Below are positions 6,836 through 59,761 of a stretch of DNA of 64,000 bases, in pieces. A program made the translations under genes and the position numbers. How positions within the stretch are numbered: the first letter of the stretch is position 1; each line of letters begins with the position of its first letter. Source of the stretch: a bacterium (GTDB lineage: Bacteria > Joyebacterota > Joyebacteria > Joyebacterales > Joyebacteraceae); NCBI GenBank assembly GCA_025774935.1, contig JALGZK010000004.1:186001-250000 (forward strand). The letters run 5' to 3'. The notes below the pieces were generated by a model. That model searched no databases. It had not been told where the DNA came from and worked only from the letters and a program-made list of their open reading frames with translations.

Positions 6836-7963
6836 ATGTCCGGTGACTACTACGACGTGCTCGGCGTAAGCAAGGACGCCTCGCCGGACGAGATCAAGAA
6901 GGCGTACCGGGACCTCGCGTTCAAGCACCATCCCGACAAGAACCCCGGTGACGCCGAGGCCGAGGAGAAGTTCAAGGCCGCGACCGAGGCGTTCGAGGTT
7001 CTCTCCGACGCTGACAAGAAGGCGCAGTACGACCAGTTCGGCGCCGCCGGGCTCGGCGCGGGGCAGCAGGGCTTCGCCCACCCCGGCTTCGACATGAACG
7101 ACGCGCTCCGGACCTTCATGAACGCGTTCGGGGGCGAGAGCATCTTCGACGAGCTCTTCGGAGGAGCAGGGGTCCGCGACGGGCGCCCGGCGCGGAGGAA
7201 GGGCGCGGACATCCGGATCCGCCTCAAGCTCACGCTCGAGGAGATCGCGGAGGGCGTGAAGAAGAAGATCAAGGTCTCGCGGATGGTCGCGTGCGGGGAG
7301 TGCGGAGGCTCCGGCGCGAAGCCCGGCACGACCCCCACCTCGTGCACCGACTGCGGTGGCTCGGGCCAGGTCGTCCGACAACAGAGCATGGGGATGTTCG
7401 GCGCGTTTCAGAGCGTGTCGCCCTGCCCGCGCTGCGCAGGCACAGGCGAGATCATCGAGGATCGCTGCGAGAAGTGTAACGGCAGCGGGCTCACGAAGGG
7501 GACGGAGGTCGTCGAGGTCACCGTGCCCTCCGGCGTCTCGAGCGGGAACTACATCCCGATCGAGGGCGGCGGGAACGCGGGCGCGAGGGGCGGCCCGAAT
7601 GGCCACCTCATCGTCGTGATCAACGAGCTTCCGCACAAGCTCTTCGAACGCCGCGCCGACGACGTTCTCCTGGACCTCCCCGTGTCGCTCGACGTGGCGG
7701 CCCTCGGGGGGCAGGTCGAGGTTCCGACTCTGAACGGCAAGGCGCGCCTGAAGATCCCTGCGGGAACTCCCTCCGGCAAGGTCCTGCGCATGCGCGGGAA
7801 GGGCGTCAAGCACCTCCGCGGGCGCGGGGCGGGCGACGAGCTCGTCAGAGTCGTCGTGTGGGTACCGAAGCGTCCCTCGTCGGAGGAGAAGGACCTCCTG
7901 AAGAAGCTCGGGAAGCTCTCTGCAGGCAAGGTCCCGGGGCCTGCGAAGCCCGGGGCGCACTAG
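6836..7963 (+). CDS. dnaJ: Chaperone protein DnaJ (Hsp40, type I)
   Basis: A 375-residue type I J-protein. J domain at residues 3-70 with the HPD motif (HHPDKNPG, about residues 30-37). A short Gly/Phe region precedes the zinc domain with four CxxCxGxG units ([32 protein letters not shown], about residues 153-215), then the two C-terminal substrate-binding beta domains. It stimulates DnaK ATPase and delivers clients. The J-to-zinc region contains fewer Gly repeats than in E. coli DnaJ. Confidence 0.97.
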
Positions 7964-7985: not shown

Positions 7986-8768
7986 GTGCCGACTCACGAA
8001 CTCGACGATCCCCAAGCGTGGAAGTACGACACGTATCTCGTTCCGCCCGGCTCCCTCGGAGACCGGGCGGTCGTTGTCGACGGTCCCGAAGGTCACCACG
8101 CCGCCGACGTCGCGCGAATCAGACCGGGCGACGTCGTGAGACTCATCGACGGGGAGGGGGCCGAGGCGCTCGCCCGAGTCGAACACTCGGAGCACGCTAG
8201 GGCGACGCTCGAGGTCCTGGAGGCGCGGATCCGTTCGCGTGAAGAGGGGCTCGAGCTCGTCGTCGCCCAGGCTCTCCTGAAGAGGAAGGGGTTCGAGGAG
8301 ACGGTGAGGCGGTGTGCGGAGCTCGGCGTCTCGGAGATCGTCCCGGTCGTGACCGAGCGGAGCGTGGCCAGGGCCCCGGGAGGGAGCGGGACCGCGCGCG
8401 TCGAGCGATGGCGCGCCGTCGCGCTTGCGGCGGTCAAGCAGTCGAGGGGCGTGTTCGTCCCGAGGGTCGGAGAGATTCGGTCGCTCGACGAGGTTGGGGA
8501 ACTCCCCGAGGAAGGCGACCTCGCCCTCGTGGCCTGGGAGGAGGAGAGCGGCAGGGGGCTCGCTCGCGCGCTCCGCTCCCGCAGAGGTGGGGGACAGGTC
8601 TTCCTGGTCGTCGGGCCTGAGGGAGGTCTCGCACCGGGAGAGGTCGAATCGCTTGTTTCGGCCGGTTTCGTGCCGGTCACCGCAGGTCGACGCGTCCTGA
8701 AGGCCGACTGGGCTGCGGCGGCGATAGCGGCCATGGTGTCCTTCGAGGTCGGGGGACTCCTTCCTTAG
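7986..8768 (+). CDS. rsmE: 16S rRNA (uracil-1498-N3)-methyltransferase RsmE
   Basis: A 260-residue SPOUT methyltransferase. The PUA-like N-terminus (VDGPEGHHAADVARIRPGDVVRLIDGEG) and the core QALLKRKGFEETVRRCAELGVSEIVPVVTERSV are typical, and the knot contains FLVVGPEGGLAPGEVE. The usual LR-x-ETA motif near the end is here LKADWA, a departure at a normally well-conserved place; I cannot tell whether it changes activity. GTG start with GGAGGA just upstream, 22 bases after dnaJ, so co-transcribed with the chaperone operon, a frequent arrangement. Confidence 0.9.
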   Translation: MPTHELDDPQAWKYDTYLVPPGSLGDRAVVVDGPEGHHAADVARIRPGDVVRLIDGEGAEALARVEHSEHARATLEVLEARIRSREEGLELVVAQALLKRKGFEETVRRCAELGVSEIVPVVTERSVARAPGGSGTARVERWRAVALAAVKQSRGVFVPRVGEIRSLDEVGELPEEGDLALVAWEEESGRGLARALRSRRGGGQVFLVVGPEGGLAPGEVESLVSAGFVPVTAGRRVLKADWAAAAIAAMVSFEVGGLLP

Positions 8769-8796
8769 ATTCCTCCGGAATCGTCCTCTAAACCGG

Positions 8797-8825
8797 TTGA
8801 CAAGCTCTCCGCGTCAGGCTACCAT
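8797..8825 (+). promoter_or_regulatory. Sigma-70 promoter of rpsU-yqeY
   Basis: TTGACA (8797-8802), 17-base spacer, TACCAT (8820-8825). It would give a leader of about 125 bases before rpsU. The rest of the 8769-8957 gap holds nothing else I recognise. Confidence 0.65.
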
Positions 8826-8957
8826 AAAAGGTCTGAGCCATGTCCCGCGCGCGACGGACGTGTCTTGCGTCGTTGTGCGCCCGATGGACACGTGTATCGT
8901 ATCCAGGTGATCGAGTTCATGCGATCGAGCCGGCAGCCCGGAGGGGGGTGGAGCTGA

Positions 8958-34461: not shown

Positions 34462-37400
34462 ATGAAGATAAACCGCGTCACTTCCATCATGCTTACGGTG
34501 CTGGTCGCCTGTCTCCTGGCGTCGGGAACGGCCGACGCCCAGACGTTCGGGCGCAACAAGGTCCAGTACCGGAGCTTCGACTGGCGCATCATCCACACGG
34601 CCCACTTCGACGTCTACTTCTACGAGGGCTCCGAAGACCTCGCCGACGCCGTCAGCCGGATCGTCGAGGACGCCAACACCGAGTTCGAGCGCGTCCTGGG
34701 ACACGAGCTGACGACAGTCATCCCCGTCATCATCTACGCGTCCCACAACGACTTCAGCTCCACGAACATCTCAGCGTCTCACATCGAGGAGACGGTCGGC
34801 GGTTTCACGGAGCTCTACAAGAACCGGGTCGTGATCCCGTTCACGGGCTCGTACGACGACCTGAGGCACGTGCTGTACCACGAGCTTACGCACGTCTTCC
34901 TGTTCGACATCGTGTACGGAGGCCTCGTCGATTCAGTCATCCGGCAGGCGTACACCAACCCGGTCCCGCTCTGGTTCGTGGAGGGCATCGCGGAGTACAT
35001 GTCCATGGGCTGGGACCCCGAGGCCGAGATGATCCTGAGGGACCTCGCGGTCTCGGACCTCGTCGTTCCTCTCGAGTATCTGTACGGCGGATACCTCGTC
35101 TACAAGCAGGGGCAGGCGGTCGTCAACTTCATCGCCGAACGCTACGGCGAGGAGAAGATCAGGGAGATCGTTAGAGCCATCGCGAAGACGCACAACCTCG
35201 AGCAGGCGCTCCAGGAGACGATTGGCCTGTCGACGTCCCAGCTCTCCGAGGAATTCGAGGACGCCGTGCAGGAGAGGTACTGGCCCGAGATCACGGAGAG
35301 GGAGGACCGCGAGGACGTGGTCGACCTCATCACCGACCACAGGAAGGACGGCTCGTACTTCAACTTCGGCCCGTCGATCTCTCCGGACGGGAAGTCAGTC
35401 ATCTTCGTGTCGGACAGGACCGGGTACGCCGGCGTGTACGTTGCGTCGACGCTCGACGGCGCGATCCTCGGGAAGTACGTGAGCGGCGAGAGCACCGACG
35501 AGTTCGAGGCGCTGCACATCCTGCGGACGGGATTCGGGTGGTCCCCGGACGGCAGCGAGATCGCCTTCGTCGCGAAGGCGGGCGAACGCGACGCCCTCCA
35601 CTTCATCGACACCGAGGAACGCAAGGTCGTGAGGAGCTTCAGGTTCGAGCTCGACGGCGCCTTCACGCCCGCCTGGTCCCCGGACGGGGAACGGATCGTG
35701 TTCGTCGGCACGAGGCACGGCGCGTCCGACCTATACATGACCGACAGAAACGGGGCGGAGCCCAGGAAGCTCACCGACGACTACTACGACGAGCGGGATC
35801 CCGAGTGGTCGCCCGACGGCACGCGCATCGTCTTCTCCTCGGACCGGTCGTCGCCGGAGGAGCTCGGGTTCAAGCGCGACTACGATCTGTACACTCTCGA
35901 TCCGGAGTCCCTCGAGGTCGTGCGCATAGTGGCGACGCCCGGACGCGAGGGTCATCCGACGTGGTCCCCCGATGGGTCCTACGTCGCATACACCTCGGAC
36001 GTGCACGGCTCGCCCGGCATCTACATCGCGAGCGTCGCCGACTCGATGAGCGTTCTGACGACGACCCTCGTCGGAGGGGCGAAGGCTCCGAGCTGGGCGC
36101 GCGATGCCGACTGGGCGGCGTTCCAGGTCTACGGAGAAGGCGGCTGGGACATCGCCGTTGCCAAGAACCCGATGGAGCGCTTCAGCGAGGTCATCGCCGA
36201 GAACGGGTGGTTCCCGAGCGTCGGCGCTCCGCTGGACGTCGTGCTGAACGGCATCGTGGCGGTGGTAGAAGCTGAGGGCGGGGAAGTCACGGACGAGAAG
36301 ATGGAGGTGGCCGTCGAGCGGCTCGGCGAAATGGGAATCGGCGAAGGCGGTGCGGAGGGCGAAAGCTCGGCGCTAGCGGCGGCCGGCGTCGCGGCCGGTG
36401 CCGCGTACGCGGCGTCGGGACCCGATCCGGCGCCGGGACTGTCGCCGGAGCCAGACGAGGGCGCGGTCGGAACGCCCGCGGCCGCGGAATCGGCCGCCGG
36501 TCCTCCCGATGCCGAGACTCCGGACGGTCCCGCAGACGCGGTCTCCGCGAGCGGTCCGGAAGACGAGCCTGACGCCTACGCCAGCGAGCACGGTGACTCC
36601 GGCGAGGTCGCATCCGACGCGACCGAAGGCGAGCCGGAGGACGGTCCGGCGAGCGCCGACGCCACGGACGAAGGAGCCGCGACCGGGGCTGCCGCCGGCG
36701 CGGCTGCGGCTGGCGCTTCGGCCGTGCCGCCGCCCGAGAGCGAGACCGTCACGAAGGCGAGGGACGCCTTCCTCAAGGCGACGGGGAACGACGTGTTCGA
36801 GCCGGAGGAGGAGCCGGACCGCGACGAACACATCGTCGAGCGCTACAGGCCCAGGTTCGCCCCCGACTGGATCACCGGCGGGCTCAGCTACTCGTCCGCG
36901 TACGGGTTCGCCGCGTCCGCGGAGATCTCGATCAGCGACGTGCTCGGCAACCACAGGTTCTACATCGTCACCGACATCTTCGCGAGCATCGAGGCCAGCA
37001 ACTTCTACGTCGAGTACTCGAACCTCTCTAATCGATGGAACTGGTCGGTGGGCGTCTTCCACTTCAAGGAGAGCTACTACTCCGACCGGACGCAGCTCGG
37101 GGAGTACCTCGGGAAGAAGCGCTACTTCACCGAGCGCAACTACGGGGTCACGAGCTCCGTCAGGTACCCGTTCAGCAAATTCACCCGGATGGAGATCGGT
37201 CTCTCCGTCATGTCGGTCGACCGGCAGTACGCGGCCGCGAACCCGGAGGGCATCGTCGAGCTGACGGACGAGAAGCTCAAGCGCCAGCTCCTCGTTCCGA
37301 GCGTCCGGCTAGTCAACGACACGACGACGTGGGGGTCGGTCGGGCCGGTCGCGGGGCGCCGCTTCTCCATCGCCGTCTCGAAGGGCTGGGACCCGGGCGG

Positions 37401-37896
37401 GAGCTTCGACTACCTGACGGGGACCCTCGACTTCCGGGAGTACATGAGGCTCGGCAAGAGGCATACCCTCGCCGTCCGGCTTCTCGGGGCCAGAAGCTCC
37501 TCCCGAGACGCGCAGTACTTCTATCTCGGCGGCATCAACGGCCTGCGCGGTTACGACGACTTCTTCTTCCACGGACACAACCTCGGGTTCGTCAGCCTCG
37601 AGCTCCGGATGCCGTTCATCGACCGCCTCGACATCGCGGCACCCCTGCCGCTGTCGCTCTGGGGACTCCGCGGCGTGGTCTTCCTCGACGCGGGCGCGGC
37701 CTGGGATGGGAACAACTTCCGCGGCCTCGTGTCCGGTCCGGCCGGTCGGACGCTCGGTGACATCCGGGCCGCCTACGGCTTCGGGCTGAGAATGAGGTTC
37801 TCCTATTTCGTCCTCCGGTTCGACTGGGCGTGGCCGACCGACGGCCGGACGAGCGGACCGATGAGGACGCACTTCGCTCTCGGAGGCGAGTTCTAG
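34462..37896 (+). CDS. Peptidase MA-like / PD40 propeller / Omp85-type barrel fusion
   Basis: A 1144-residue exported protein with three parts. After a signal peptide (ending near ADAQ, residue 27) comes a gluzincin-like domain with HELTH (about residues 141-145) and a downstream Glu in WFVEGIAEYM (about 171-180), as in peptidase MA/DUF2268-type zinc peptidases. Residues about 295-560 hold TolB-like PD40 blades (PSISPDGKSVIFVSDR, PAWSPDGERIVFVGTR, PEWSPDGTRIVFSSDR, PTWSPDGSYVAYTSD). A low-complexity Ala/Glu/Pro/Asp linker (about 633-765) leads to a C-terminal barrel (about 795-1144) with GGINGLRGYDDF, LELRMPF and LDAGAAW, the signature of the Omp85/surface antigen barrel (PF01103), ending in GGEF. 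Probably an outer-membrane protein displaying a peptidase and propeller; substrate unknown. Confidence 0.85.
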   Translation: MKINRVTSIMLTVLVACLLASGTADAQTFGRNKVQYRSFDWRIIHTAHFDVYFYEGSEDLADAVSRIVEDANTEFERVLGHELTTVIPVIIYASHNDFSSTNISASHIEETVGGFTELYKNRVVIPFTGSYDDLRHVLYHELTHVFLFDIVYGGLVDSVIRQAYTNPVPLWFVEGIAEYMSMGWDPEAEMILRDLAVSDLVVPLEYLYGGYLVYKQGQAVVNFIAERYGEEKIREIVRAIAKTHNLEQALQETIGLSTSQLSEEFEDAVQERYWPEITEREDREDVVDLITDHRKDGSYFNFGPSISPDGKSVIFVSDRTGYAGVYVASTLDGAILGKYVSGESTDEFEALHILRTGFGWSPDGSEIAFVAKAGERDALHFIDTEERKVVRSFRFELDGAFTPAWSPDGERIVFVGTRHGASDLYMTDRNGAEPRKLTDDYYDERDPEWSPDGTRIVFSSDRSSPEELGFKRDYDLYTLDPESLEVVRIVATPGREGHPTWSPDGSYVAYTSDVHGSPGIYIASVADSMSVLTTTLVGGAKAPSWARDADWAAFQVYGEGGWDIAVAKNPMERFSEVIAENGWFPSVGAPLDVVLNGIVAVVEAEGGEVTDEKMEVAVERLGEMGIGEGGAEGESSALAAAGVAAGAAYAASGPDPAPGLSPEPDEGAVGTPAAAESAAGPPDAETPDGPADAVSASGPEDEPDAYASEHGDSGEVASDATEGEPEDGPASADATDEGAATGAAAGAAAAGASAVPPPESETVTKARDAFLKATGNDVFEPEEEPDRDEHIVERYRPRFAPDWITGGLSYSSAYGFAASAEISISDVLGNHRFYIVTDIFASIEASNFYVEYSNLSNRWNWSVGVFHFKESYYSDRTQLGEYLGKKRYFTERNYGVTSSVRYPFSKFTRMEIGLSVMSVDRQYAAANPEGIVELTDEKLKRQLLVPSVRLVNDTTTWGSVGPVAGRRFSIAVSKGWDPGGSFDYLTGTLDFREYMRLGKRHTLAVRLLGARSSSRDAQYFYLGGINGLRGYDDFFFHGHNLGFVSLELRMPFIDRLDIAAPLPLSLWGLRGVVFLDAGAAWDGNNFRGLVSGPAGRTLGDIRAAYGFGLRMRFSYFVLRFDWAWPTDGRTSGPMRTHFALGGEF

Positions 37897-44576: not shown

Positions 44577-44607
44577 TTGACGAATCCACGTCTCTGTGTC
44601 GTATAAT
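44577..44607 (+). promoter_or_regulatory. Promoter of exported sorting-domain protein
   Basis: Consensus -10 box TATAAT at 44602-44607 with TTGACG at 44577-44582; the 19-base spacer is long. Start near 44613 rules out ATG at 44606 as the translation start. Confidence 0.55.
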
Positions 44608-44662
44608 GATGGCCGGCGCGACGACCTCGGAGCCGGCGGGCGCCGGCATGGAGGATGCGGAC

Positions 44663-45739
44663 ATGACCAGGAAGCTGGGAGAGAAGCGAACGCGCAGACC
44701 GAGGATCGGATTGGCGACGGCTCTCGTCGTCGGGGCCTTCATGATCGCGATGTTGGCTACGGGCGCGGCGCAGGCGAGGCCGGCGGAGCTTCCCGGACCG
44801 GCCGACGTCGAGGGAGACCTCGGGACCTATGCGCCGGTCAGCCTCAAGGCGGATCTCCCGTTCGTCGACGCGCCGAGCGCGGACTCGCGCCCGGGAAGGC
44901 TCAGGTCGCTCCACGCCGACCAGCGCGCGGATCGGCTACTCCTTCGGATCGGGCTCGCCGAGACGGGTTCGCATCGCGAGAACCTCTCGCTCTTCCGGGA
45001 CGGACGGATGCGCGTCTACGTTCTCCTCGACTACGCTGACGGCGGAGCGACCGGGATGCCGGATGGGCTCAAGGGTGACGCTCCGCTCCGGTGGGACGCC
45101 GCGGTGCGACTCGGCCACGACGGCGACGCGCTGGAGGCGAGTGGGTTCCTGTGCGGCCGCAGCGAACCTGCGCGCGGCTTCGTGCGAGGGGTCGTGACGG
45201 TGACCGGCTCGAGGGCGATCGAGTGCTCTCTGAATCTGCCGGCCGCATTCAGGGCCGCGACGATCGCCGCTGCCGACGCGCACTGGTCGGAGTACGAGCG
45301 GATCGCTGCCGACATGGCCGGCCGCGACGCGACGCCGGTCGCGTACCACGTCGTCTCGGTGGTCGACGGCGAGCCCGTCGACGCGATCTCGGCGACGAAT
45401 GAGCCGCAGAGCGGGAGGCGGGTCGGCGCCACTGGCGAGACCAGGAACGCCCGTTCGGAGAGCGTCCTCAGGCAGAACGCGCCGAACCCATTCAACCCGA
45501 AGACGACGTTGTCGTTCGTCGTCGCGGGAGGAGCTGCGACCCGTGCGGTCCTCGAGGTGTACGACCTCGCGGGCAGGCTCGTTATCACGCTCGTCGACCT
45601 GGAACTCGAGCCGGGCGATCACTCCGTCGTGTGGCGGGGTTGCGATCGGGAAGGTCGTCGAGTCGCCTCAGGTGTCTACTTCGCGAGACTGTCGGTCGAC
45701 GGGGAGACGGACACGCGCAGGATGATCATGCTCAAGTGA
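44663..45739 (+). CDS. Exported protein with FlgD-like C-terminal sorting domain
   Basis: A 358-residue protein. ATG at 44663 follows GGAGGAT; signal peptide/membrane helix at residues about 18-38 (IGLATALVVGAFMIAMLATGAAQA). The middle 220 residues have mixed beta character with no known family. From about residue 268 comes a domain of the FlgD-Ig/type-A sorting kind: LRQNAPNPFNPKTTLSF, VLEVYDLAGRLV, HSVVWRGCDREGRRVASGVYF, RRMIMLK. In Bacteroidota and relatives such domains direct cargo to a type IX-like secretion system and are cleaved. Probably a secreted or surface protein. Confidence 0.8.
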   Translation: MTRKLGEKRTRRPRIGLATALVVGAFMIAMLATGAAQARPAELPGPADVEGDLGTYAPVSLKADLPFVDAPSADSRPGRLRSLHADQRADRLLLRIGLAETGSHRENLSLFRDGRMRVYVLLDYADGGATGMPDGLKGDAPLRWDAAVRLGHDGDALEASGFLCGRSEPARGFVRGVVTVTGSRAIECSLNLPAAFRAATIAAADAHWSEYERIAADMAGRDATPVAYHVVSVVDGEPVDAISATNEPQSGRRVGATGETRNARSESVLRQNAPNPFNPKTTLSFVVAGGAATRAVLEVYDLAGRLVITLVDLELEPGDHSVVWRGCDREGRRVASGVYFARLSVDGETDTRRMIMLK

Positions 45740-45915: not shown

Positions 45916-46341
45916 ATGGCCGAGCGTCACGGCGACGAAACAGCCGGAGTAGATGCGCACTTCTTCCGCCTCGTGGCGACCTTTGAGGCCGCGGCGATGC
46001 AACAGCTAGGGAAGATCGCGAATCCTCTGACGGGCGAGGTCGAGATCCACCTCGACGCCGCGAGGGAAGCGATCGACATGCTCGACATGATGCGGCGGAA
46101 GACCGAGGGCAACCTCGACGGAGATGAGCAACGCCTGCTGGAGCACGTCCTCTATCAGCTCCGCATGAACTTCCTCGACGTCTCGAGGGAGGAGCGGTCG
46201 GGAACGGCGGAAGATGCGGCGCCCGGTGGCGACGTGCCGTCCGGCGACCAAGGCCCGGCACAGGACACCGAGTCGAGCGATGAAGCCGCGTCCGACGAAG
46301 AACCTCCGTCGGGCGACGAAGCTGAACTCGAGGGATCATGA
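45916..46341 (+). CDS. DUF1844 domain-containing protein
   Basis: A 141-residue protein whose first 95 residues match DUF1844 (PF08899): FFRLVATFEAAAMQQLGKIANPLTGEVEIHLDAAREAIDMLDMMRRKTEGNLDGDEQRLLEHVLYQLRMNFLDV, in the usual order. The rest is an acidic Ser/Asp/Glu/Pro tail. Function of DUF1844 is unknown; it is common in Deltaproteobacteria, Acidobacteriota and FCB-related phyla. ATG follows GGAGGGAGC. ATGA overlap with the next gene. Confidence 0.88.
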   Translation: MAERHGDETAGVDAHFFRLVATFEAAAMQQLGKIANPLTGEVEIHLDAAREAIDMLDMMRRKTEGNLDGDEQRLLEHVLYQLRMNFLDVSREERSGTAEDAAPGGDVPSGDQGPAQDTESSDEAASDEEPPSGDEAELEGS

Positions 46342-47633
46342 CGACTCGACGGGGGACACGGGGACGCAGCGCCGCGACGGTCGGCGCCCTCGCGGTTGCG
46401 ACGCTCCTCCTCACTCTTGGCTCCGAGGCGGCGGCGCTCGCGCTGCCGTGCGAGTGCTCCGCGTTCGGGACCTCGGGCCTGATCCTCCTCAGCTCCGCGA
46501 AGCCGCAGACGCGAGGAGTTCTGGCTCTCTCGCTCGCCGCACACCACTACGAGTCGTACGACCTGTCCGACTGCCTCGGAACGTCGAAGCCCGGCGTCTA
46601 CACGAGCCTGCACCTCGCCGGGAACTACGGCATGACCGACTGGCTTGAGTTCTCGTTCGACGTGCCAGCCAGGCGCGCGTCATGGGACGGGACGACCCAG
46701 GGCTCGAGGACGATAACGGGTCTGGACAACCCCGTGGCCGCCGTGAAGATAGGCGCACCGGTGTCGTCGGCCTGGCACTTGGGTCTCGAGACCCGGTTCG
46801 GCCTCCCGCTCGGGGGGGAGCTCTACCTGGACGACACCTGTGACGATCGTACCCGCATCACCGGCGGCAAGAAGACCGACTGGGAGATCATCGCCCTGGC
46901 GACGGGCGACTTCAGCGATCGGTTTCCGCTCCGCGTTCACGCAAACGTCGGGTGGGCCTTTCACACGAACGAGACCGATGGGCGCCGGTACTTCCCCGAC
47001 TACTACCCGCCTGCCAACGCCGGCGGCAGCCGCTACACCAACGACCTTCTGATCCTCCGTGGCGCGCTCGAGTTCCCCGGACGCGACGTGGCTCTCTTCA
47101 CGGAGTTCCGAGGGGACATCTTCCTCAACAGCGACCACATCGCGCTCAAGGAGAGCCCGCTCTCGCTCACGCCCGGCGTGAGGTTCCGGTTCGGGGGATG
47201 GTCGGCGACGGCTGGGTTCACCGTCGCGCTGTCCGGGGACGACTCCAGCACGCCCGACTTCGATCCGCACCAGGCCTACCCGGACTGGGAGGTCACCGTG
47301 TCGCTCGCGTACTCCTGGCCGATCATGGCGGCCGACACGGACGAGGATGGCATCCCCGATCACAGCGACGCGTGCGTCCGTCAAGCGGAGGACTTCGACG
47401 GCTTCCAGGACGAGGACGGCTGCCCTGATCCCGACAACGACGGAGACGGCGTGCCCGACGACGACGATGGAGAGCCGCTCCTCGCCGAGGACCTCGATGG
47501 GTTCGAGGACGGCGACGGAGTTCCCGATCTCGACAACGACGGAGATGGCATCGTCGACGAACGCGACATGTGCCCGAACGAGAGAGAGGACCTCGACGGC
47601 TTCGAGGATCAGGACGGATGCCCGGACAGGTAG
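46338..47633 (+). CDS. Outer-membrane barrel protein ending in TSP3-like Asp repeats
   Basis: A 431-residue protein with signal peptide (cleavage near ALALP, residue about 36), a beta-rich barrel region (about 45-330) and, at the C-terminus, thrombospondin type 3-like calcium repeats ([48 protein letters not shown], ending EDQDGCPDR). Similar proteins normally continue with an OmpA peptidoglycan-binding domain; here the gene stops right after the repeats. I see no OmpA-like residues in the other frames downstream, where a Nudix gene begins, so the loss seems real. Coupled by ATGA to the DUF1844 gene. Confidence 0.8.
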
Positions 47634-50609: not shown

Positions 50610-51057
50610 GATGCGTCGAATGGCATTCATGACAACTGTCGGATGCCGGCGGAAGTGACCTCGCATCGACCTCGCGCAGCGCCGCTAACTTGACAAAGGC
50701 TCTCGCCTTGGAATGACGCTAAAGGCCCATGTAGCGGTGCAAAAGAAGGTTGACAGATTTTGAAGCGCTGTGCTAGATTGCCCCAACGCTCGTCAGGAGC
50801 GGGGAGAAGTGACGATACGGAAGCGACAAACAGTGGGGGTTCCAGCGTTTGGAGGCCGCGACGCAGCGGCGTATCCAGCGTCGATTGGAGGTGAATCTAG
50901 AGGAGGTTCGACAGTTTAGAAGGAAGGGACGATTCGCCACGCAAAGGGTGGCGAGGGTTCTCCGTCTACGGCAAGTCAGTGCCGTGGGGCGGGGTCCGCG
51001 CGCGCGGGGCAGTCAGCGCGGGCGCGGGTTGAACACGGATCTCTAGGAGGTTGTCGG
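50610..51057 (+). other. 448-base leader/intergenic region before giant gene
   Basis: Holds a promoter at 50750-50779 and a transcribed leader of about 270 bases. The leader has local hairpins CGCCAC-GCAAAG-GGTGGCG (about 50936-50954) and ACGGCA-AGTCAG-TGCCGT (about 50969-50987) and several purine-rich GGAGGTG/GAGGAGG stretches. A 65-codon frame at 50849-51046 has no usual start and no protein-like features, so I do not call it a gene. Confidence 0.5.
50750..50779 (+). promoter_or_regulatory. Promoter of giant Asp-repeat gene
   Basis: TTGACA (50750-50755), 18-base spacer, TAGATT (50774-50779) with TGC just before it (extended -10). Confidence 0.65.
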
Positions 51058-54000
51058 ATGGCAAGAGATAACCGCGGCGACAGAGGCGCGATGCTGGTGT
51101 TCGCTTCTCTTCTGGTCGTGTTCGCGCTGGTTATCTGGGCCGTTCCTGTCGGCGCGTACTACTACGACACGGACGGTGACGGTCTGGAAGACTTCTTCGA
51201 GTCGAAGCACGGCATTCACGGCACCGTGAATGACGAGGGTGCAGACTGGGATGGTGACGGTCTGACCGACCTCGAAGAGGACGCGAACGGTAACGGCATC
51301 GTCGACATCGGGGAGACGGACCCGTACAACTACGATACCGACGGTGATGGCATTAGCGACGGTATCGAGGGTCTTGAGGACAGCCCCGAGGATGCGGACA
51401 CCCTCATCAACGCGCTCGACTGGGACTCCGACGGTGACTTTATTCCGGACACCGTCGAAGAGCAGATTCAGCCCGGTGATACCGAGCGTGACGGCGTCTA
51501 CGAGGGCGTTGGCTCGAACGAGACCAACTGGCTCGCTGCCGACACGGACGGTGAGGGTCTCATCGACGGTTGGGAGGCCATGTGGGGCGCAGACCCGCAG
51601 ATCCCGAACACCGACGATGACGGCTGGACCGACTGGGAGGAAGTCCAGTACGGCACCGACCCGAACGACGATGACACCGACAATGACGGTCGCTTCGACG
51701 GCGTCGGCAACGAGGACGAAGACGACGCGGACGGCGACGGCCAGATCAACGCCGTCGACTTCGACAGCGACAACGACGGTCTCATCGACGGCGATGAGGA
51801 CATGAACGAGGACGGCGTCGTCGACGGCGGAGAGACGGATCCCGAGCTGTACGACACCGACTCGGACGGCTACAGCGACGGCTACGAGATCTACGAGGCG
51901 TTGACCGACCCGCTCGACGGCGGGGTGGACGCCGACGGTGACGGATGGATGGACGGCGAGGAGACGGTCATCTACAAGACCGATCCGAACGACGCCGACA
52001 CCGACGGCGACAACATCACCGACACGATCGAGAACCCGCAGAACGACCCGGGGCTCGACACGGACGGCGATGACCTGATCGACGCGCTCGATCTCGACAG
52101 CGACAACGACGGTATCGACGACTCGGAGGAAGTCGCGTCTGGCGGAGACGGTTACGTGACCGATCCGCTTCTCGTCGACACGGACGGCGACGGCCTGCCT
52201 GACGGAGCCGAGGTCTTCATCTTCGGGACCGACCCGACGGATGCGAACGACCCCTCGGACGGCGACGGCATCGAGCCCGGCGACGAGATCTACAGCTACG
52301 ACACCAACTTCGACATGTCCGATACCGATGAGGACGGGGTGGACGAGGGGACGAGTGGCCAGACCGACCGGGTGAACCTCAACTCCGACGGAATCCGTTC
52401 AAGGCCGTACGACGACTCGAGCGTGAACGCGCTCGATGCGGACGCCGATGGTGACGGTATCTGGGACGGAGACGAGGCCGGCTACGGCACGAACTTCACG
52501 GTCTGGGACACGGATGGTGACGGCCTCGACGATGGCGAAGAGGTCTACATCTGGGGTACCGATCCCACGGACCCGGACCACGATGACGACGGCCTCGAGG
52601 ATGGTGACGAGGTCGCTCTCGGAACGGATCCTCTCGACGCGAACACGGACGACGACTTCGTCGACGACGGCGTCGAGGTGAACTCCTGGGGTTCGGACCC
52701 ACTCGATCCCGACACCGACGGTGACGGCATCCTGGACGGCGAGACCATCAACGGCACGTACGTCGATGGTGACGGCGCCACGCAGAACTGGTCCTTCACC
52801 GAGAACGACGTGGACCAGGAGCTCGGCGGCGACGGCCTCGCGAACGTGGTCGACCCCGACTCCGACTGGAGAGAGTGGGAAGGCCCTCCGGGGGTCATCT
52901 ACGTCGACTTCCACGACCGCGTCGAGATTGCGTACGAGGCTTACGTCACGGCCGCGGTCGCCCGGGGAGAGCGCTTCGTGATCGGACCGCTGAATCCCGG
53001 CGTTCCGGACACGGACGGCGACGGCGTCGCTGACGGTCAGGAGGTCGCGACCGGCTTCGACCCGCTCGACGCTCGGAGCTTCGGGACGATCGGCTACACG
53101 CCCTTCGACACCGATGGCGACCAGCTGTACGACCTGGAGGAGGCCGTGCTCGAGGGCACGACGCCTCCGACGATGCACCTGGTCGTCGACTTCGACGGCG
53201 ACGGTCTCTGGGATGGCGACGAGCTCCACCCGAGCTGGTGGGACGAGGACGGCATCCCCCAGACGTGGCCCACCAACCCGCTCATGGCCCACTCCGAGCA
53301 GGAGTACGGGTACCCGTGGCCGTATCACGACGGGATGAATGACGGGCAGGAGGTCGCTGCCGCACCGCCGAACGACACCAACCCGCACACCGTCGACACC
53401 GACGGCGACGGTCTCTGGGACGACGACGAGATCGGTTGGGGCTACAACCCGACAGATCCCGACACGGACAGCGACCAGCTCTATGACGGGTTTGAGGATG
53501 CCGACGGCGACGGCGTTGTCGACGCGGGCGAGACCGACCCGCTCGACGGCGACACCGAGGACGACGGCATCTACGACGGTCCCGAGTGGATCTTCAACAC
53601 CGACCCGCTCGACTTCGACACGGACGGTGACGGTCTCGGTGACGGACTCGAGGTCGGCTACGACGCCGGCAACATCGGTCCTGACACGGACGGTCTCACG
53701 TTCGGACCGGGCGACCAGGACACGGCGACGATGACGGACCCGCGTCTGGTCGACAGCGACTTCGACGGGCTCGACGACGACGTCGAGGACGTGAACATGA
53801 ACGGTGCTCTCGATCCGGGTGAGACGGATGCTCAGGATCGCGACACCGACGACGATCACCTGCCCGACTACTACGAGGTTCCGGGCTGCGACCCGCTCAT
53901 CCCTCCTGCTGACTACTACGCGGTGGGCTGGGTCGACAACTCGGCCGACGCGACCGACCCCGAGCTGACCGATACCGACGGGGATGGTCTCGAGGACGAC

Positions 54001-57000
54001 CTCGAGTTCGAGCAGATGGCCGACCCGTTGGTCATGGACTCCGACGGTGACTTGATCATCGACGGTGACGAGTACTACTCGTGGGAGACCGATCCGACGA
54101 ATCCCGACACCGACAGTGACGGGTGTATGGAGTCGGACGCGGTGGTCCTCGATCCGGATGACCTCACCGATCCTCTCGTGATCGAGAACGTCCGGACCGA
54201 TGCAGACGGTGACGGCGCCCACAACGCGATGGACGTCGACAGCGACAACGACTGGACCTGGGACGGTGACGACGACGAGGACTGCGCCGGTGCCAACGAC
54301 GCCGACGGCGACGGGGTCCCGGACATCCTGGATAACGACAGCGACAACGACAACCTGTCCGACCGTCAGGAGATGGGTCTGAACACCTGGCACGTCTTCG
54401 CCGACAACGACCGTGACTGGGACGAGGATGGACTCCTCGACGGCGACGAGTACTACCAGGTGCTCCACCAGCCCCACACCGGCGAGATCGGATTCAGGGC
54501 GTCGTCTCCGACGCTGTTCGACACGGACCGCGACACCTTCCACGACGGTTTCGAGCAGGGCATGGTCGGCCCGATTCCGATCGATCCGGTGTTCGGGGGC
54601 ACGAACCCCGACCCGGCCCACTGGGACTTCGACGGCACGTCGAACTCGAACGTCTTCCTCTACGACTCCGACTACGACGGCCTCTGGGATCCCGACGAGG
54701 ACGTGAATGCCGACGGTAACGACCTCGACATCACGGGCAACGTCGAGACCGACCCCGAGGACGACGACACGGACGACGAGGGTCTCATCGACGGTTACGA
54801 GGTCTTGACGGCCGGTACCGACCCGCTCGTCTGCGACACCGACGTCGACGACCTCTCGGACGGCCTCGAGCACGGCCTCCTCGGCGCGATGGGGAGCGAC
54901 ACGTCGATCGCCAATCCGTGCCTCTCGAACCGGTACGACACGGTGGAGGACGGCGCCTACACGACCGACCCGCTGGACAACGACACCGATGGTGACACCC
55001 TGTGGGACGGTGCGGACGAGGACGTCGACTGGGACGGTTTCCGCGATGGGAACGACCCGCACGACACGGACTCCGACTGGGGCTTCGGCGGCGAGACGGA
55101 CCCGAACGTTGCGGACACCGACCGGGGTGGAGTGACGGACGATCTCGATGTGGATCCGCTCCTCTACACGACGGGCGACTGGGACATCGACATCGATGAC
55201 GACGATGCCGACGTCGTCGGGAACGTCCTGACGATCGGAACGCCGGGCGTGGGTATCGACCCCGGCTCGAACGACACCGGTCAGTTCGTGTTCTGGCACA
55301 CCGACGGGGCGAACAACCCCGATCCTGGCGACGGTCCTTCGGCTGCGGCCGGCCCGATCGACGGGATCTACGTCGTGGCGACGTCGTTCCACTGGGTCGA
55401 CGAGCTCAGCGGCGTGACCTACAGCGTGCCCGACACGAGCATGCTCCACTGGTTCCACTACAGCGAGCTCGGCTACGACCAGAGCTGGTTCGACGGTGTG
55501 GCCGTCGGCACGTCACGGACGGTCACCGTGACCGCGAACGTCCCCGAGGGTGCGATGCCCGGAATCTACATGGGCTACATCCAGGTGGAGACGACGCGCG
55601 CCATCGAGCAGGAGCTGCCGGACGACTGGGTTGAGGTCTGGGTCTACGTCTCGGCTGCGAAGGATCTCGACATCTGCGACGACGACGACGATCCGATCGG
55701 AGTCGGCCTGGCTTCCGACCCGCCGAACTTCGACGAGCCTGCCGCGATCGGCGAGATGCACCTCGTGGGTGCCCCGATGTGGCCCGGCGACATCGCCGGC
55801 ATGTACAGGCTCGCGAACCCGAACACGAACCCCGACGGCGTGTGGCCGTGGCCTGGCGGAGCGCCCGACGGGATCAATGACTACAACTTCTTCCCGGCGA
55901 TGCCGTGGATCGGGAGAGACTGGGATCTGAACACGTTCGATGCCCAGGGCAACGTGAACCTGACCTACGACATCCGGGCGGAGTACTACTTCTCGAGCGG
56001 CCCGATGAACCCGACGGGCGTCATCGACTTCATGAACCCGCTGGCAAACGGGTTCGAGTTGGCGGAGGTCGACTCGTTCTGGCTCTACGTCGACACGACG
56101 ACGCTGGTACGCGGGTTCTACGAGGGTACGGTGAGGGTGTTCGAGGACATCCCGCACTCGCCGTTCCCGCCGAACGGCACGTGGGATCCTGACGAGGTCT
56201 ATGACGACTTCATCCTCAAGTTCCAGCTCATCCTGCCTGACCTCGACATCGACGACGACTACGCGAACATGTCCGGGAACCACCTCATCATCGACGTCTT
56301 CCCGGGCGATGTTCAGGTCATGGTCGGTGAGATCGAGTACTGGTGTGCCAGCGCGGTCAACCCCGGGTCCAACGTCGACGCTGTCGACGGTCCGGGAGAC
56401 GAGGACTTCCTGGACCTCCAGTTCTACGATACGGTCGACGATGAGCTGATCCACATCCCGCAGGACGGCACCGTGCCGCCGGTGGTCTTCGATCTCTGGA
56501 ACCCGACGGCGACGCAGTCCATCGAGGCCACGATCGACGGCCTCATGGGCGACGGTCTGCCCGAGGGCGAGGCGAAGAGGCTCAGGCTCCAGATTCCGGA
56601 GGTTCCCGCGAATCTGCCGGCCGGCACCTACCGCCCGCTCAACGTGGCAGGCTGGATCCCCGGCGACGGCACTGTCAACATCACCGCCAGGGGTGTCTCC
56701 ACGGGTCTCGGAGACGTCACCATCCTTCAGCAGGACTACAGCCCGAACGACGGTTCCGAGGCCGGCATGGGACCGGGTGTCGTTTACGACCCGGACATCG
56801 ATGCGGTCGCGGAGCTGATGGACTACTTCCACCTGACGGTCAACGTCATGGCCGTGATCTCGGTCGAGTGGGACGACGCCGGTTGGGCGGAAGACGGTCT
56901 CCCGGGCACGGTTGTCTGTGCTGAGGCGACGGTGAACAACACCGGGAACTTCGAGGTCAACGACGTGCACTTCGAGTCCTCGGCTCTCATCGGCGAGACC

Positions 57001-58182
57001 TACGGCGGGATCATCCCGGCCGTGGCGGTCGGCTTCGACCCCTCGGGTCTGTCGATTCCGTACAACGAGTCCGATGACGTCAACATCTGCGTGGTCATCC
57101 CCGAGGATATGCGGGCCGATGACTACACGGGCTCCATCTCGCTCTTCGCGGACGGGAACACGCTCTTCGACGAGCTGCCGTTCACGATCACGGTCCTGCC
57201 GGTTCCGGCGATGGAGATCTCGGACAATGCGTACAACGTCGTCGGCAACGTGATGACGCTGGCGCCCGAGCCCGGCTGGATGAGGTCTGACTCCGGCCTC
57301 TTCGAGATCGTGAACCTCGGCAACGACGACCTGGGCGACATCATGGCTCTCGATGTCGCAGGGCTGCCTGATGGCCTCGACGTTACGGTCGAGGTGCCTG
57401 AGACCATCGACTACGACGAGTCCGACACTGGCCTCGTGACGGTCGAGTGGACCGACGGCGCAGTCATTGCCGGTACGCACACGGCGTACGTGGTTGTCAC
57501 CGCCGAGGAAGGGACTCTCGAGGACTCGTTCACCCTCGACATCATCATCGCGGAGATTCCGGCCGCGGAGTTCGAGGACGAGGAGATCGAGTTCGAAGGC
57601 ATGGCGGGTGAGATGCTCGAGTCGGGCTTCACGGTGAACAACATCGGGAACACCGACATCACCGAGGGTCTCGCGTTCGTCGTGACCGATCTCGAGGGCG
57701 AGACCGGCTCGTACATTTCGAGCGACAACATCGTGATCGATCCTCCCACCGCGGTCATTCCGTACGCCGACTACTACGACTTCGACATCGCCGTCAGCGT
57801 GCCCGCGGAGCTGCTCGCCCAGATGTACGAGGGTGAGATCAGCGTCTTCATCGGCAACGAGGAGTGGGACACGATCCCGATCACGGTGATGCTCGCGATG
57901 GGCGACGGTGAGATCGTGATGTACCCGAACCCCTACCGCGACGCGGTGCATGACGGGGGCGTGACGATCGCTGTCGGAACTGAGTCCGACAACGTCACGG
58001 TCAACGTCTACGACATGTACGGCGCGAAGGTGGCGGAGATCGGAAGCAGCGGCGGGCGCCACACGGAGCTCGTCTGGGATCTCACGAACGACGACGGCAA
58101 GAGCGTGACGAGTGGCATGTACGTCGTCACGGTTGACACCGGCGACAAGGTCACAACGCGGAAGATCATGGTCATCAGGTAA
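51058..58182 (+). CDS. Giant Asp-rich surface protein: TSP3-like repeats, Ig-like modules, C-terminal sorting domain
   Basis: A 2374-residue exported protein. Signal peptide MLVFASLLVVFALVIWAVPVGA (about residues 12-33). Residues about 35-1368 are continuous thrombospondin type 3-like calcium repeats (DTDGDGLED, DSDGDFIPD, DTDDDGWTD and many variants). Residues about 1372-2285 are beta-rich modules; three begin with the same pattern, DIDIDDDDADVVGNVLTI (about 1374), DLDIDDDYANMSGNHLII (about 1727), MEISDNAYNVVGNVMTL (about 2051). The last 90 residues are a FlgD-Ig/type-A sorting domain: YPNPYRDAV, VTVNVYDMYGAKVAEI, LVWDLTNDDGKSVTSGMYVV, TTRKIMVIR. ATG follows CTAGGAGG. Probably a calcium-stiffened fibre or surface-layer-like protein; function unproven. 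Followed by a PorV-like gene. Confidence 0.85.
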   Translation: MARDNRGDRGAMLVFASLLVVFALVIWAVPVGAYYYDTDGDGLEDFFESKHGIHGTVNDEGADWDGDGLTDLEEDANGNGIVDIGETDPYNYDTDGDGISDGIEGLEDSPEDADTLINALDWDSDGDFIPDTVEEQIQPGDTERDGVYEGVGSNETNWLAADTDGEGLIDGWEAMWGADPQIPNTDDDGWTDWEEVQYGTDPNDDDTDNDGRFDGVGNEDEDDADGDGQINAVDFDSDNDGLIDGDEDMNEDGVVDGGETDPELYDTDSDGYSDGYEIYEALTDPLDGGVDADGDGWMDGEETVIYKTDPNDADTDGDNITDTIENPQNDPGLDTDGDDLIDALDLDSDNDGIDDSEEVASGGDGYVTDPLLVDTDGDGLPDGAEVFIFGTDPTDANDPSDGDGIEPGDEIYSYDTNFDMSDTDEDGVDEGTSGQTDRVNLNSDGIRSRPYDDSSVNALDADADGDGIWDGDEAGYGTNFTVWDTDGDGLDDGEEVYIWGTDPTDPDHDDDGLEDGDEVALGTDPLDANTDDDFVDDGVEVNSWGSDPLDPDTDGDGILDGETINGTYVDGDGATQNWSFTENDVDQELGGDGLANVVDPDSDWREWEGPPGVIYVDFHDRVEIAYEAYVTAAVARGERFVIGPLNPGVPDTDGDGVADGQEVATGFDPLDARSFGTIGYTPFDTDGDQLYDLEEAVLEGTTPPTMHLVVDFDGDGLWDGDELHPSWWDEDGIPQTWPTNPLMAHSEQEYGYPWPYHDGMNDGQEVAAAPPNDTNPHTVDTDGDGLWDDDEIGWGYNPTDPDTDSDQLYDGFEDADGDGVVDAGETDPLDGDTEDDGIYDGPEWIFNTDPLDFDTDGDGLGDGLEVGYDAGNIGPDTDGLTFGPGDQDTATMTDPRLVDSDFDGLDDDVEDVNMNGALDPGETDAQDRDTDDDHLPDYYEVPGCDPLIPPADYYAVGWVDNSADATDPELTDTDGDGLEDDLEFEQMADPLVMDSDGDLIIDGDEYYSWETDPTNPDTDSDGCMESDAVVLDPDDLTDPLVIENVRTDADGDGAHNAMDVDSDNDWTWDGDDDEDCAGANDADGDGVPDILDNDSDNDNLSDRQEMGLNTWHVFADNDRDWDEDGLLDGDEYYQVLHQPHTGEIGFRASSPTLFDTDRDTFHDGFEQGMVGPIPIDPVFGGTNPDPAHWDFDGTSNSNVFLYDSDYDGLWDPDEDVNADGNDLDITGNVETDPEDDDTDDEGLIDGYEVLTAGTDPLVCDTDVDDLSDGLEHGLLGAMGSDTSIANPCLSNRYDTVEDGAYTTDPLDNDTDGDTLWDGADEDVDWDGFRDGNDPHDTDSDWGFGGETDPNVADTDRGGVTDDLDVDPLLYTTGDWDIDIDDDDADVVGNVLTIGTPGVGIDPGSNDTGQFVFWHTDGANNPDPGDGPSAAAGPIDGIYVVATSFHWVDELSGVTYSVPDTSMLHWFHYSELGYDQSWFDGVAVGTSRTVTVTANVPEGAMPGIYMGYIQVETTRAIEQELPDDWVEVWVYVSAAKDLDICDDDDDPIGVGLASDPPNFDEPAAIGEMHLVGAPMWPGDIAGMYRLANPNTNPDGVWPWPGGAPDGINDYNFFPAMPWIGRDWDLNTFDAQGNVNLTYDIRAEYYFSSGPMNPTGVIDFMNPLANGFELAEVDSFWLYVDTTTLVRGFYEGTVRVFEDIPHSPFPPNGTWDPDEVYDDFILKFQLILPDLDIDDDYANMSGNHLIIDVFPGDVQVMVGEIEYWCASAVNPGSNVDAVDGPGDEDFLDLQFYDTVDDELIHIPQDGTVPPVVFDLWNPTATQSIEATIDGLMGDGLPEGEAKRLRLQIPEVPANLPAGTYRPLNVAGWIPGDGTVNITARGVSTGLGDVTILQQDYSPNDGSEAGMGPGVVYDPDIDAVAELMDYFHLTVNVMAVISVEWDDAGWAEDGLPGTVVCAEATVNNTGNFEVNDVHFESSALIGETYGGIIPAVAVGFDPSGLSIPYNESDDVNICVVIPEDMRADDYTGSISLFADGNTLFDELPFTITVLPVPAMEISDNAYNVVGNVMTLAPEPGWMRSDSGLFEIVNLGNDDLGDIMALDVAGLPDGLDVTVEVPETIDYDESDTGLVTVEWTDGAVIAGTHTAYVVVTAEEGTLEDSFTLDIIIAEIPAAEFEDEEIEFEGMAGEMLESGFTVNNIGNTDITEGLAFVVTDLEGETGSYISSDNIVIDPPTAVIPYADYYDFDIAVSVPAELLAQMYEGEISVFIGNEEWDTIPITVMLAMGDGEIVMYPNPYRDAVHDGGVTIAVGTESDNVTVNVYDMYGAKVAEIGSSGGRHTELVWDLTNDDGKSVTSGMYVVTVDTGDKVTTRKIMVIR
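51160..55160 (+). repeat. DNA repeat tract encoding Asp-rich TSP3-like units
   Basis: The coding DNA is built of degenerate repeats of GACACGGACGGTGACGG-like units spaced irregularly, about 4 kb in all. The divergence between units at third codon positions suggests an old array held by selection on the protein, rather than recent duplication. Confidence 0.75.
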
Positions 58183-58197
58183 ACACCTGACTTGCGA

Positions 58198-58225
58198 GGT
58201 GCGGGGGCTAAGGGGCCCCCGCACC
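58198..58225 (+). terminator. Strong intercistronic hairpin between giant gene and porV-like gene
   Basis: GGTGCGGGGGC (58198-58208), six-base loop, GCCCCCGCACC (58215-58225). An 11-base-pair, almost all G-C stem, 16 bases after the giant gene stop and 24 before the next start. No T tract, so it may act as attenuator, mRNA-stability element or partial terminator. Confidence 0.5.
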
Positions 58226-58248
58226 CCGGGAAGCAAGGAGGTCGGAAC

Positions 58249-59178
58249 ATGATGAGAAAGGTCGGTCTTCCCCTCGTACTGGTCGCCGCGATGCTCGTGA
58301 CGGGCGTTGCTAGCGCCACTGACGGTACGGCGGGAAGCACCTACTTGGACGTCTTTGGAATCGGGGTGGGGGCGCGGCCGAGCGGCATCGGCGCGTACCA
58401 CGCGGCCCCCGGTGACCTCTGGAGTCTGACCTACAACCCCGCCGGTCTCGCGAACATCCAGCGCGTCGAGCTGGGCGTGAGTGCGATCGAATGGTTCAAA
58501 GACACGTCCTACACGTATCTCGGCGTGGGATTCCCCCGCGGCGAAGGCGGGCTGGCCCTCGGGCTTGCCTACTTCGACCTGGGGAGCGTTCCCGCGTTCG
58601 ATGACCAGGGGTCCAACCTGAACGCCACGGCCGATGCCTACAACTTCGGCTTCATCGGCGGCTACGGGTTCGACGTCCCGAACGTCTGCGATCTGTCCGC
58701 CGGCATCACCGGCCAGGTGATCCAGGGCAGCTTCGACGACCGGTCGGGCACGGCGCTCGGCGTCAACATCGGCGTCCAGTACGGCCTCAGCGAGAATCAC
58801 TTCCAGCTGAGCGCTGTCGTCAAGAACCTCGGCACGAGCTTCAAGTTCGCCGAGGAGGAAGAGGACCAGACGCTCACGTGGGCGTTCGGTGCCGCGTACC
58901 AGACGCTGCCTGAGGACATCCAGAACGTGGACATCCTGGTCGCCGGCGACCTGCTTCTCCCGAAGAACCGCGACATGGCGTTCGCGCTCGGTGGCGAGGT
59001 CTGGATCTACAAGATGCTGGCGCTCCGCGCCGGCTATCAGACCGGCAGCGAGTTCGGGAACTTCGCCTACGGCGCCGGATTCCGCTACAGCGACTTCGTG
59101 CTCGACTACACGTACACCGACTACAAGGACCTCGAGTCGACGCACAGGCTCTCGCTGGGCATGATGTTCGGCGGCTAG
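58249..59178 (+). CDS. PorV/PorQ-like outer-membrane protein (UPF0164 family)
   Basis: A 309-residue barrel with signal peptide (cleavage near ASA, residue about 24). The N-terminal mature motif YLDVFGIGVGARPSGIGAYHAAPGDLWSLTYNPAGLANIQRVELGVS is the PorV/PorQ hallmark (GAR-x-x-G-x-G-A ... D-x-x-x-x-x-x-NPAGLA). Family: FadL-like 14-strand barrels; PorV is the shuttle/attachment subunit of the type IX secretion system that binds C-terminal sorting domains. Here it directly follows a gene with such a domain. Ends in GMMFGG. ATG after AGGAGGTCGGAAC. No other type IX genes in the window. Confidence 0.85.
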   Translation: MMRKVGLPLVLVAAMLVTGVASATDGTAGSTYLDVFGIGVGARPSGIGAYHAAPGDLWSLTYNPAGLANIQRVELGVSAIEWFKDTSYTYLGVGFPRGEGGLALGLAYFDLGSVPAFDDQGSNLNATADAYNFGFIGGYGFDVPNVCDLSAGITGQVIQGSFDDRSGTALGVNIGVQYGLSENHFQLSAVVKNLGTSFKFAEEEEDQTLTWAFGAAYQTLPEDIQNVDILVAGDLLLPKNRDMAFALGGEVWIYKMLALRAGYQTGSEFGNFAYGAGFRYSDFVLDYTYTDYKDLESTHRLSLGMMFGG

Positions 59179-59201
59179 ATCTGCGAGAAGTGTTCGAGCG
59201 A

Positions 59202-59231
59202 CGAGGGGCGCCGTGCAAGCGGCGCCCCTCG
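59202..59231 (+). terminator. Terminator after porV-like gene
   Basis: CGAGGGGCGCCG (59202-59213), loop TGCAAG, CGGCGCCCCTCG (59220-59231): 12 perfect base pairs, 24 bases after the stop. T tract absent. Confidence 0.65.
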
Positions 59232-59272
59232 GTGCGTTCGGGCCCCACCCACCCACCCTCCCTGTTTGGTGC

Positions 59273-59301
59273 TTGAGGGCCGAAACGCCCTGTGCTAGTA
59301 T
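59273..59301 (+). promoter_or_regulatory. Promoter of nucleoside-catabolic operon
   Basis: TTGAGG (59273-59278), 17-base spacer, TAGTAT (59296-59301) with TGC before it (extended -10). Start about 60 bases before cdd. Confidence 0.65.
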
Positions 59302-59368
59302 CCAGGCCTGCTCAGACAGGACCGGTCGGTGCGAGCCGGTGACGCACGGGAGAGGATGCGAACGCGCG

Positions 59369-59761
59369 ATGACGGACGACCAACTCATTCAGGAAGCCAG
59401 GACGGCGATCGGGAACGCGTACGCTCCCTATTCGGGGTTCTCGGTCGGGGCCGCGCTCCTTGCGAGCGACGGGCGCGTCTTCACCGGCGTCAACGTCGAG
59501 AACGCGTCGGTCGGGCTCTCGGTCTGCGCGGAGCGGAACGCGATCGCGAAGGCCGTCTCGGAGGGCGCGAGGGAGTTCGAGAAGATGGCGATCGTGACGA
59601 ACTCCGACGAGCCGACTATGCCGTGCGGCGTCTGCAGGCAGGTGATCTGGGAGTTCTCGCAGGACCTCCCCATCCTGATCGAGGCGTCGGGCGGGTCGCG
59701 GGTCGCCACGACGATCGCCGAGCTGTTCCCGCATCCGTTCACCACGTACCGCCAGCCTTAG
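59369..59761 (+). CDS. cdd: Cytidine deaminase
   Basis: A 130-residue, tetrameric-type cytidine deaminase: AYAPYSGFSVGAALL, VNVENASVGLSVCAERNAI (first zinc Cys and catalytic Glu), MPCGVCRQVIWEF (other zinc Cys pair), and the C-terminal LFPHPFT. Converts cytidine/deoxycytidine to uridine/deoxyuridine. It has no N-terminal extension, unlike its two neighbours. First gene of cdd-rpiB-deoC-deoA; a GAGAGGA lies rather far upstream of ATG. Confidence 0.95.
   Translation: MTDDQLIQEARTAIGNAYAPYSGFSVGAALLASDGRVFTGVNVENASVGLSVCAERNAIAKAVSEGAREFEKMAIVTNSDEPTMPCGVCRQVIWEFSQDLPILIEASGGSRVATTIAELFPHPFTTYRQP

Follow-up and report, generated by a model that had tools for sequence, protein, structure and literature searches.

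A giant protein with calcium-type repeats and a type IX secretion sorting domain, and its candidate PorV-like partner, in Candidatus Effluviviaceae

The window analysed here, a stretch of 64,000 nucleotides from a genome of 3.24 Mb in 40 contigs, contains a gene for a very large repeat protein that is directly followed by a gene for an outer-membrane barrel with its own ribosome binding site. The two genes, their parts, and the elements around them, all on the forward strand, are:

50750..50779, forward: promoter of the two-gene unit, TTGACA-18-TAGATT (10 of 12 consensus positions match, a score that one site in the region should reach by chance; a TG precedes the second hexamer)
50833..50897, forward: conserved nested hairpin of 65 bases in the 5' leader (pairing, covariation)
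50935..50953, forward: second leader hairpin (compensatory changes, ten orthologs)
51045..51050, forward: ribosome binding site AGGAGG of the giant gene (sequence; kept in orthologs)
51058..58182, forward: giant TSP3-repeat gene, putative cargo of the type IX secretion system (T9SS) (2374 aa, ATG start, no internal stop)
51058..51156, forward: candidate Sec-type signal peptide, residues 1-33 (by inspection; putative cleavage after VGA, no lipobox)
51166..55167, forward: TSP3 repeat array, residues 37-1370 (PF18884; 57 DxDxD-type sites)
55168..57909, forward: tandem Ig-like beta modules, residues 1371-2284 (structure model, Foldseek)
57919..58173, forward: T9SS type A C-terminal sorting domain, residues 2288-2372 (TIGR04183, 39.3 bits, cut-off 23)
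58198..58225, forward: GC-rich hairpin between the giant and the barrel gene (sequence; 10-base stem)
58249..59178, forward: PorV/PorQ-family outer-membrane barrel gene (309 aa; NF033709, 127.6 bits, cut-off 90)
59202..59231, forward: GC-rich hairpin 3' of the barrel gene, where the unit may end (no T run)

The ATG at 51058 is taken as the start of the giant gene because it is preceded by the AGGAGG site and because the N-terminus MAR[DE]NR is conserved in the orthologs. An upstream in-frame ATG, present in three relatives (G013, G017, and G006), is absent from the other loci and was rejected as the true start. The hydrophobic core and the A-x-A-like site of the candidate signal peptide are retained in the orthologs, and together with the sorting domain they support the original prediction that the protein is exported and directed to the surface. 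In the sense frame, dN/dS is 0.15-0.65, indicating purifying selection in all regions of the giant gene. Because sense-frame dN/dS is below 1 in every region, the long antisense reading frames at 52399-55458 and 55513-59388 were rejected as genes and are considered shadow frames. A phmmer search with the whole protein against the PDB gave no match.

The promoter is kept in ten orthologous loci; behind it lies a leader of about 270 bases. In the 65-base hairpin 98.5% of cells are paired, and both-side changes were found in 6 cells compared to 1.7 in shuffles, these counts being derived from ten related sequences and not to be read as probabilities. The covariation exceeds that of slid controls and drops sharply once the partner is slid. 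Two leader hairpins besides the 65-base one also covary. With a model of the leader element, 11 genomes each gave a single copy, while the other 50 gave none; in ten of the 11 it precedes a copy of the giant gene that was used to build or check the model, and in the remaining one (G011) it is located just upstream of a 5' fragment of the giant gene. A known riboswitch or other RNA family was rejected, as there was no Rfam match at E <= 1. The conserved leader probably tunes the synthesis of this very large and very acidic protein. A GC-rich inverted repeat is also found, by eye, in the intergenic place between the two genes in most orthologs, with differing sequence. At the hairpin behind the barrel gene, the terminator scan did not find a terminator.

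The assignment of the repeat array to TSP3 repeats, as originally proposed, was confirmed by PF18884 (TSP3_bac), which matches in 11 stretches with 57.3 bits (cut-off 25, E 1.4e-15). The motif D-x-[DN]-x-[DN]-G is present 38 times, while 2000 shuffled sequences of the same composition contain 3.4 motifs on average and 13 at most. Across the ten full-length homologs the array is about 64% identical and nearly free of insertions despite its repetitiveness. Within it, 38 of the 57 DxDxD-type sites are invariant, as are 66% of the aspartates compared to 26% of the other residues, and in every pair compared the array has the lowest dN/dS of all regions of the giant gene. Because of these invariant aspartates, the kept sites, and the low dN/dS, we regard selection as acting on the individual calcium-type sites and not merely on the overall acidity. 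This bears on the possibility that the protein attaches through its acidic repeats to carbonate surfaces or metal oxides of the seep sediment. Such a role would be in agreement with the net charge of about -550 and with the lineage, which lives in seeps and has a predicted metal respiration (PMC11323493), but the fact that individual DxDxD sites are conserved beyond general acidity argues for calcium sites with a structural role, and mineral or metal binding thus seems very improbable.

An AlphaFold2 model of residues 33-560 is of low confidence (pLDDT 46.6) and cannot be interpreted as a whole, so that the stiff fibre proposed originally stays conjectural. Its best segment consists of short helices spaced by 22-23 residues, and we used this segment because the sequence profile of the repeats independently matches the EF-hand pair of Staphylococcus aureus Bap (E 4e-5). 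By fold, the nearest solved structure is the same EF-hand pair of Bap region B (44-45 residues, E 0.1). Like the repeats in the window, Bap region B (7c7r, 7c7u) is built from tandem DxDxDG-helix units, and 44-45 residues superpose at 0.7-1.0 Å. However, Bap has only a single pair of such sites and is anchored in the Gram-positive manner (PMC7785521), whereas the giant protein has tens of sites and a T9SS domain. Membership in the Bap family, with its regions A and B, C-repeats, and Gram-positive anchor, was rejected, given that only the 44-52 residues of the EF-hand pair match and that the tail is a T9SS domain. Taken together, the repeats suggest that the giant protein probably binds calcium. 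In Bap, calcium at the EF-hand sites stabilises the protein and keeps it from assembling into an amyloid matrix (PMC7785521).

TSP3-type calcium repeats at the cell surface are also known from CglD and the TSP3 proteins MtsC and MtsD of the myxobacteria. The CglD model (NF033765) scores 263.4 bits with the whole protein and 273.5 bits with the repeat part, which is below the equivalog cut-off of 400, and CglD was rejected as an identity. In contrast to CglD, the giant protein lacks a lipobox, has another C-terminal architecture, and matches only in the repeats; its first 32 residues do not contain any cysteine, so that a lipoprotein signal of the CglD type is missing. The earlier observation that no named family was recognised for the whole architecture still holds.

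The region following the repeats was originally described as three related beta modules. The motif DIDDD-x-A-x-V-x-GN indeed recurs near residues 1376, 1729, and 2089, and the C-terminal model (mean pLDDT 68.8) shows a series of beta sandwiches, for which Foldseek returns diverse multi-Ig proteins. The relatedness of the modules is less evident: in BLAST comparisons the best pair (1961-2085 and 2196-2285) reaches E 5e-11, while all remaining pairs are at E 0.005 or worse. The region gives nothing above cut-off in Pfam. Model and Foldseek matches support Ig-like modules, and nothing more specific. The modules vary more than the repeats, and their number differs between orthologs.

The C-terminal sorting domain, earlier called FlgD-Ig-like, is better named a type A domain according to TIGR04183; PF18962 matches the same end with 27.5 bits (cut-off 27). 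In the ten full-length sequences it is 57% identical, compared to only 38-39% in the modules just before it. T9SS machinery for a type A cargo is encoded in the genome: SprA (529.8 bits, cut-off 200), PorU (531.4 bits, cut-off 420) with its gene adjoining a PorV-family gene, and further PorV-family genes. There are 148 sorting-domain matches in this genome, which lies outside the Bacteroidota, and about nine PorV-family loci, of which five lie immediately behind a sorting-domain gene and in its orientation. A further sorting-domain protein of 377 aa (TIGR04183, 28.3 bits) is encoded within the window at 44606-45739. The GldM model did not find anything in the genome, which is weak evidence of absence because the control genomes likewise do not contain a match over the cut-off.

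A giant repetitive surface protein with a T9SS domain could also be an adhesin for gliding motility, like CglD of Myxococcus or SprB of Flavobacterium. The CglD score over the repeats would fit, as would the example of SprB, likewise a giant T9SS cargo with a barrel of its own (PMC9143113). The CglD score remains under its cut-off and confined to the repeats, though, and the lipobox is absent; compared to SprB, the sorting domain is of type A and not of type B (CHU_C, PF13585, 16.7 bits, cut-off 27), and GldM was not found with the model used. A gliding adhesin is therefore hardly to be expected.

The barrel encoded downstream belongs to the PorV/PorQ family but is neither PorV proper (42.1 bits, cut-off 250) nor PorQ proper (72.2 bits, cut-off 220). 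With these it shares the family model NF033709; unlike them, it is linked to one cargo. Wherever both genes are assembled, they adjoin each other. The gene order in the relatives is alr - giant - PorV-like - cdd - rpiB - deoC - deoA, and this locus is collinear across the family. The check suggested originally, a search of related genomes for this gene beside a porV-like gene, thus did find the pair. Upstream of alr, the window and the relatives encode in the same place an OmpA-like or barrel protein that ends in a short TSP3 tail (46338-47633, 431 aa). The PorV-like orthologs are 60-91% identical. The window comes from an uncultured sediment bacterium of Candidatus Effluviviaceae, which NCBI places in the phylum Candidatus Effluviviacota, a lineage of seeps and sediments that is predicted to be Gram-negative (PMC11323493). 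Full relatives turned up in no other group: among the 61 genomes searched, full relatives of the C-terminal half are limited to this family, and a pattern scan of 84,980 species genomes, although not exhaustive, also returned only this lineage.

The two genes are present together and absent together. In four relatives (G003, G014, G016, and G018) there is neither a match to the repeat half nor a close PorV ortholog, and in relatives without a detectable giant gene or ortholog the best PorV-family match is merely 29-35% identical. In G014 and G018 the gap from alr to deoA is only about 2.2 kb, and the sequence behind alr joins the last codons of the PorV gene, with left ends that differ between the two genomes:

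L082 (near 8700-8900) and L083 (near 7250-7560): scars left by the deletions between alr and cdd, with the last PorV-like codons kept

Because these last codons are retained, we read the sequences as deletion scars of a two-gene unit that was once present and then lost. In two other relatives (G010 and G012) the PorV ortholog is retained at a contig edge, and their giant gene is therefore probably broken by the assembly. One incomplete genome (G015) was left undecided with respect to the presence of the unit. The clean deletions in G014 and G018 also led us to reject an essential surface layer. In a weaker version, the protein would be an abundant surface-layer or coat protein whose calcium repeats are sites that stabilise the coat. 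The own strong promoter with its leader and the very acidic calcium-type repeats would be compatible with a coat, but the gene was deleted in relatives that keep the neighbouring genes, no lattice domain was recognised, and the giant gene is one among many sorting-domain genes. An abundant coat protein is thus improbable.

Duplicated copies of the giant gene provide information about the relation between sorting domain and barrel:

L023:1460-8932, reverse, and L031:10428-12653, reverse: duplicated giant-gene copies with no PorV neighbour and with exchanged modules and sorting domain

The first is a second copy in G001, located upstream of the OmpA-like gene, and a PorV match was not found within the 20 kb searched around it. 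Its repeats are 71% identical to those in the window, while its last part has been replaced: over its final 110 residues the copy shares 61% identity with the sorting domain that the neighbouring gene encodes, but only 25-31% with the PorV-linked sorting domains. G008 contains a matching copy with an equally exchanged end, which is 64% identical to that of the G001 copy. The exchange in both genomes is probably one old event, and it would be consistent with this sorting domain and this barrel belonging together.

It could be possible that the PorV-like gene is a mere transcriptional neighbour, and that the giant protein uses the general route of PorV and attachment by PorU. The domain is a recognised type A domain, and a single PorV serves every type A domain of Flavobacterium (PMC12618676); there is also a porU-porV pair in the genome, and its 148 sorting-domain matches share few barrels. 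However, a mere neighbour would not be expected to show such strict co-location and joint loss with the giant gene, nor does it explain why the barrel-less copy has an exchanged domain and why neighbouring cargo and barrel genes recur in the genome. We therefore consider a mere neighbour doubtful, though by no means negligible. The reading as a dedicated partner is preferred because of the co-location, the joint presence and absence, and the scars from which both genes were deleted, because the sorting domain is more conserved than the preceding modules and yet was exchanged in the barrel-less copy, where the identity at this end is 26%, and because five of the nine PorV-family loci follow a sorting-domain gene.

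With slightly better than even confidence, the two genes thus encode a two-part surface system, in which a calcium-loaded giant adhesin or matrix protein is exported by the T9SS and held by a dedicated PorV-like partner. The giant protein would cross the inner membrane via Sec and the outer membrane via SprA, and the adjacent PorV-like barrel would collect this one sorting domain and deliver the protein to the surface or hold it there. The Ig-like modules would then form the stalk close to the cell, and the N-terminal repeats, holding tens of calcium ions, the outer part. The likeliest role would be that of an adhesin or matrix protein acting between cells, between cells and particles, or in a biofilm, and its shape or self-association may depend on calcium as in staphylococcal Bap. 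We infer the secretion route, the specific recognition by the barrel, the calcium binding, and the adhesion from the sequences. Against this explanation count the shared PorV of the Flavobacterium type A domains, the exchange that was probably a single event, the failure to find GldM, and the unreliable fold of the repeats.

Cognate pairs of cargo and barrel are known from Flavobacterium (PMC12618676, PMC9143113), where the giant T9SS cargo SprB needs its cognate barrel SprF (PMC12618676, PMC9143113). The paired domains there are of type B, with one PorV common to all type A domains (PMC12618676). Like SprB and SprF of Flavobacterium johnsoniae, the pair in the window consists of a giant repetitive T9SS cargo encoded beside one outer-membrane barrel. 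SprB-SprF combines a type B domain with a PorP/SprF-like barrel, whereas the pair in the window combines type A with a PorV/PorQ-like barrel in another phylum. In a search limited to one literature library, we did not find an account of TSP3 repeats joined with type IX secretion. The chances seem about even that, outside the Bacteroidota, a T9SS cargo of type A has here a cognate PorV-family barrel to itself, in a closed unit with a leader RNA found nowhere else and with a sorting domain that is exchanged when a copy is separated from the barrel. The unit suggests that a secretion partner can serve one giant surface protein exclusively. If true, the dedicated pairing of cargo and shuttle, reported for type B in Flavobacterium, would extend to type A and to another phylum. 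The barrel choice of T9SS sorting domains would also become directly testable, because five of the roughly nine PorV-family loci in the genome adjoin a sorting-domain gene, and because the lineage contains a duplicated cargo with an exchanged domain. In addition, the giant protein would be a large example of calcium repeats in which individual sites, and not only their number, are conserved.

Another TSP3 giant, 2259 aa long and with a fibronectin-like part, is encoded in the same genome (L001:5386-12165; G000:C1:437-444 kb). In the 19 kb around it, there is no match to the PorV-like protein of the window. Like the protein in the window, it has a TSP3_bac array and a T9SS tail, but its repeats are very regular and near-identical and its C-terminal modules are different. 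A further large protein in the window (34462-37896, 1144 aa) joins TolB-like propeller repeats to a BamA/Omp85-like C-terminal barrel, which is an unusual fusion.
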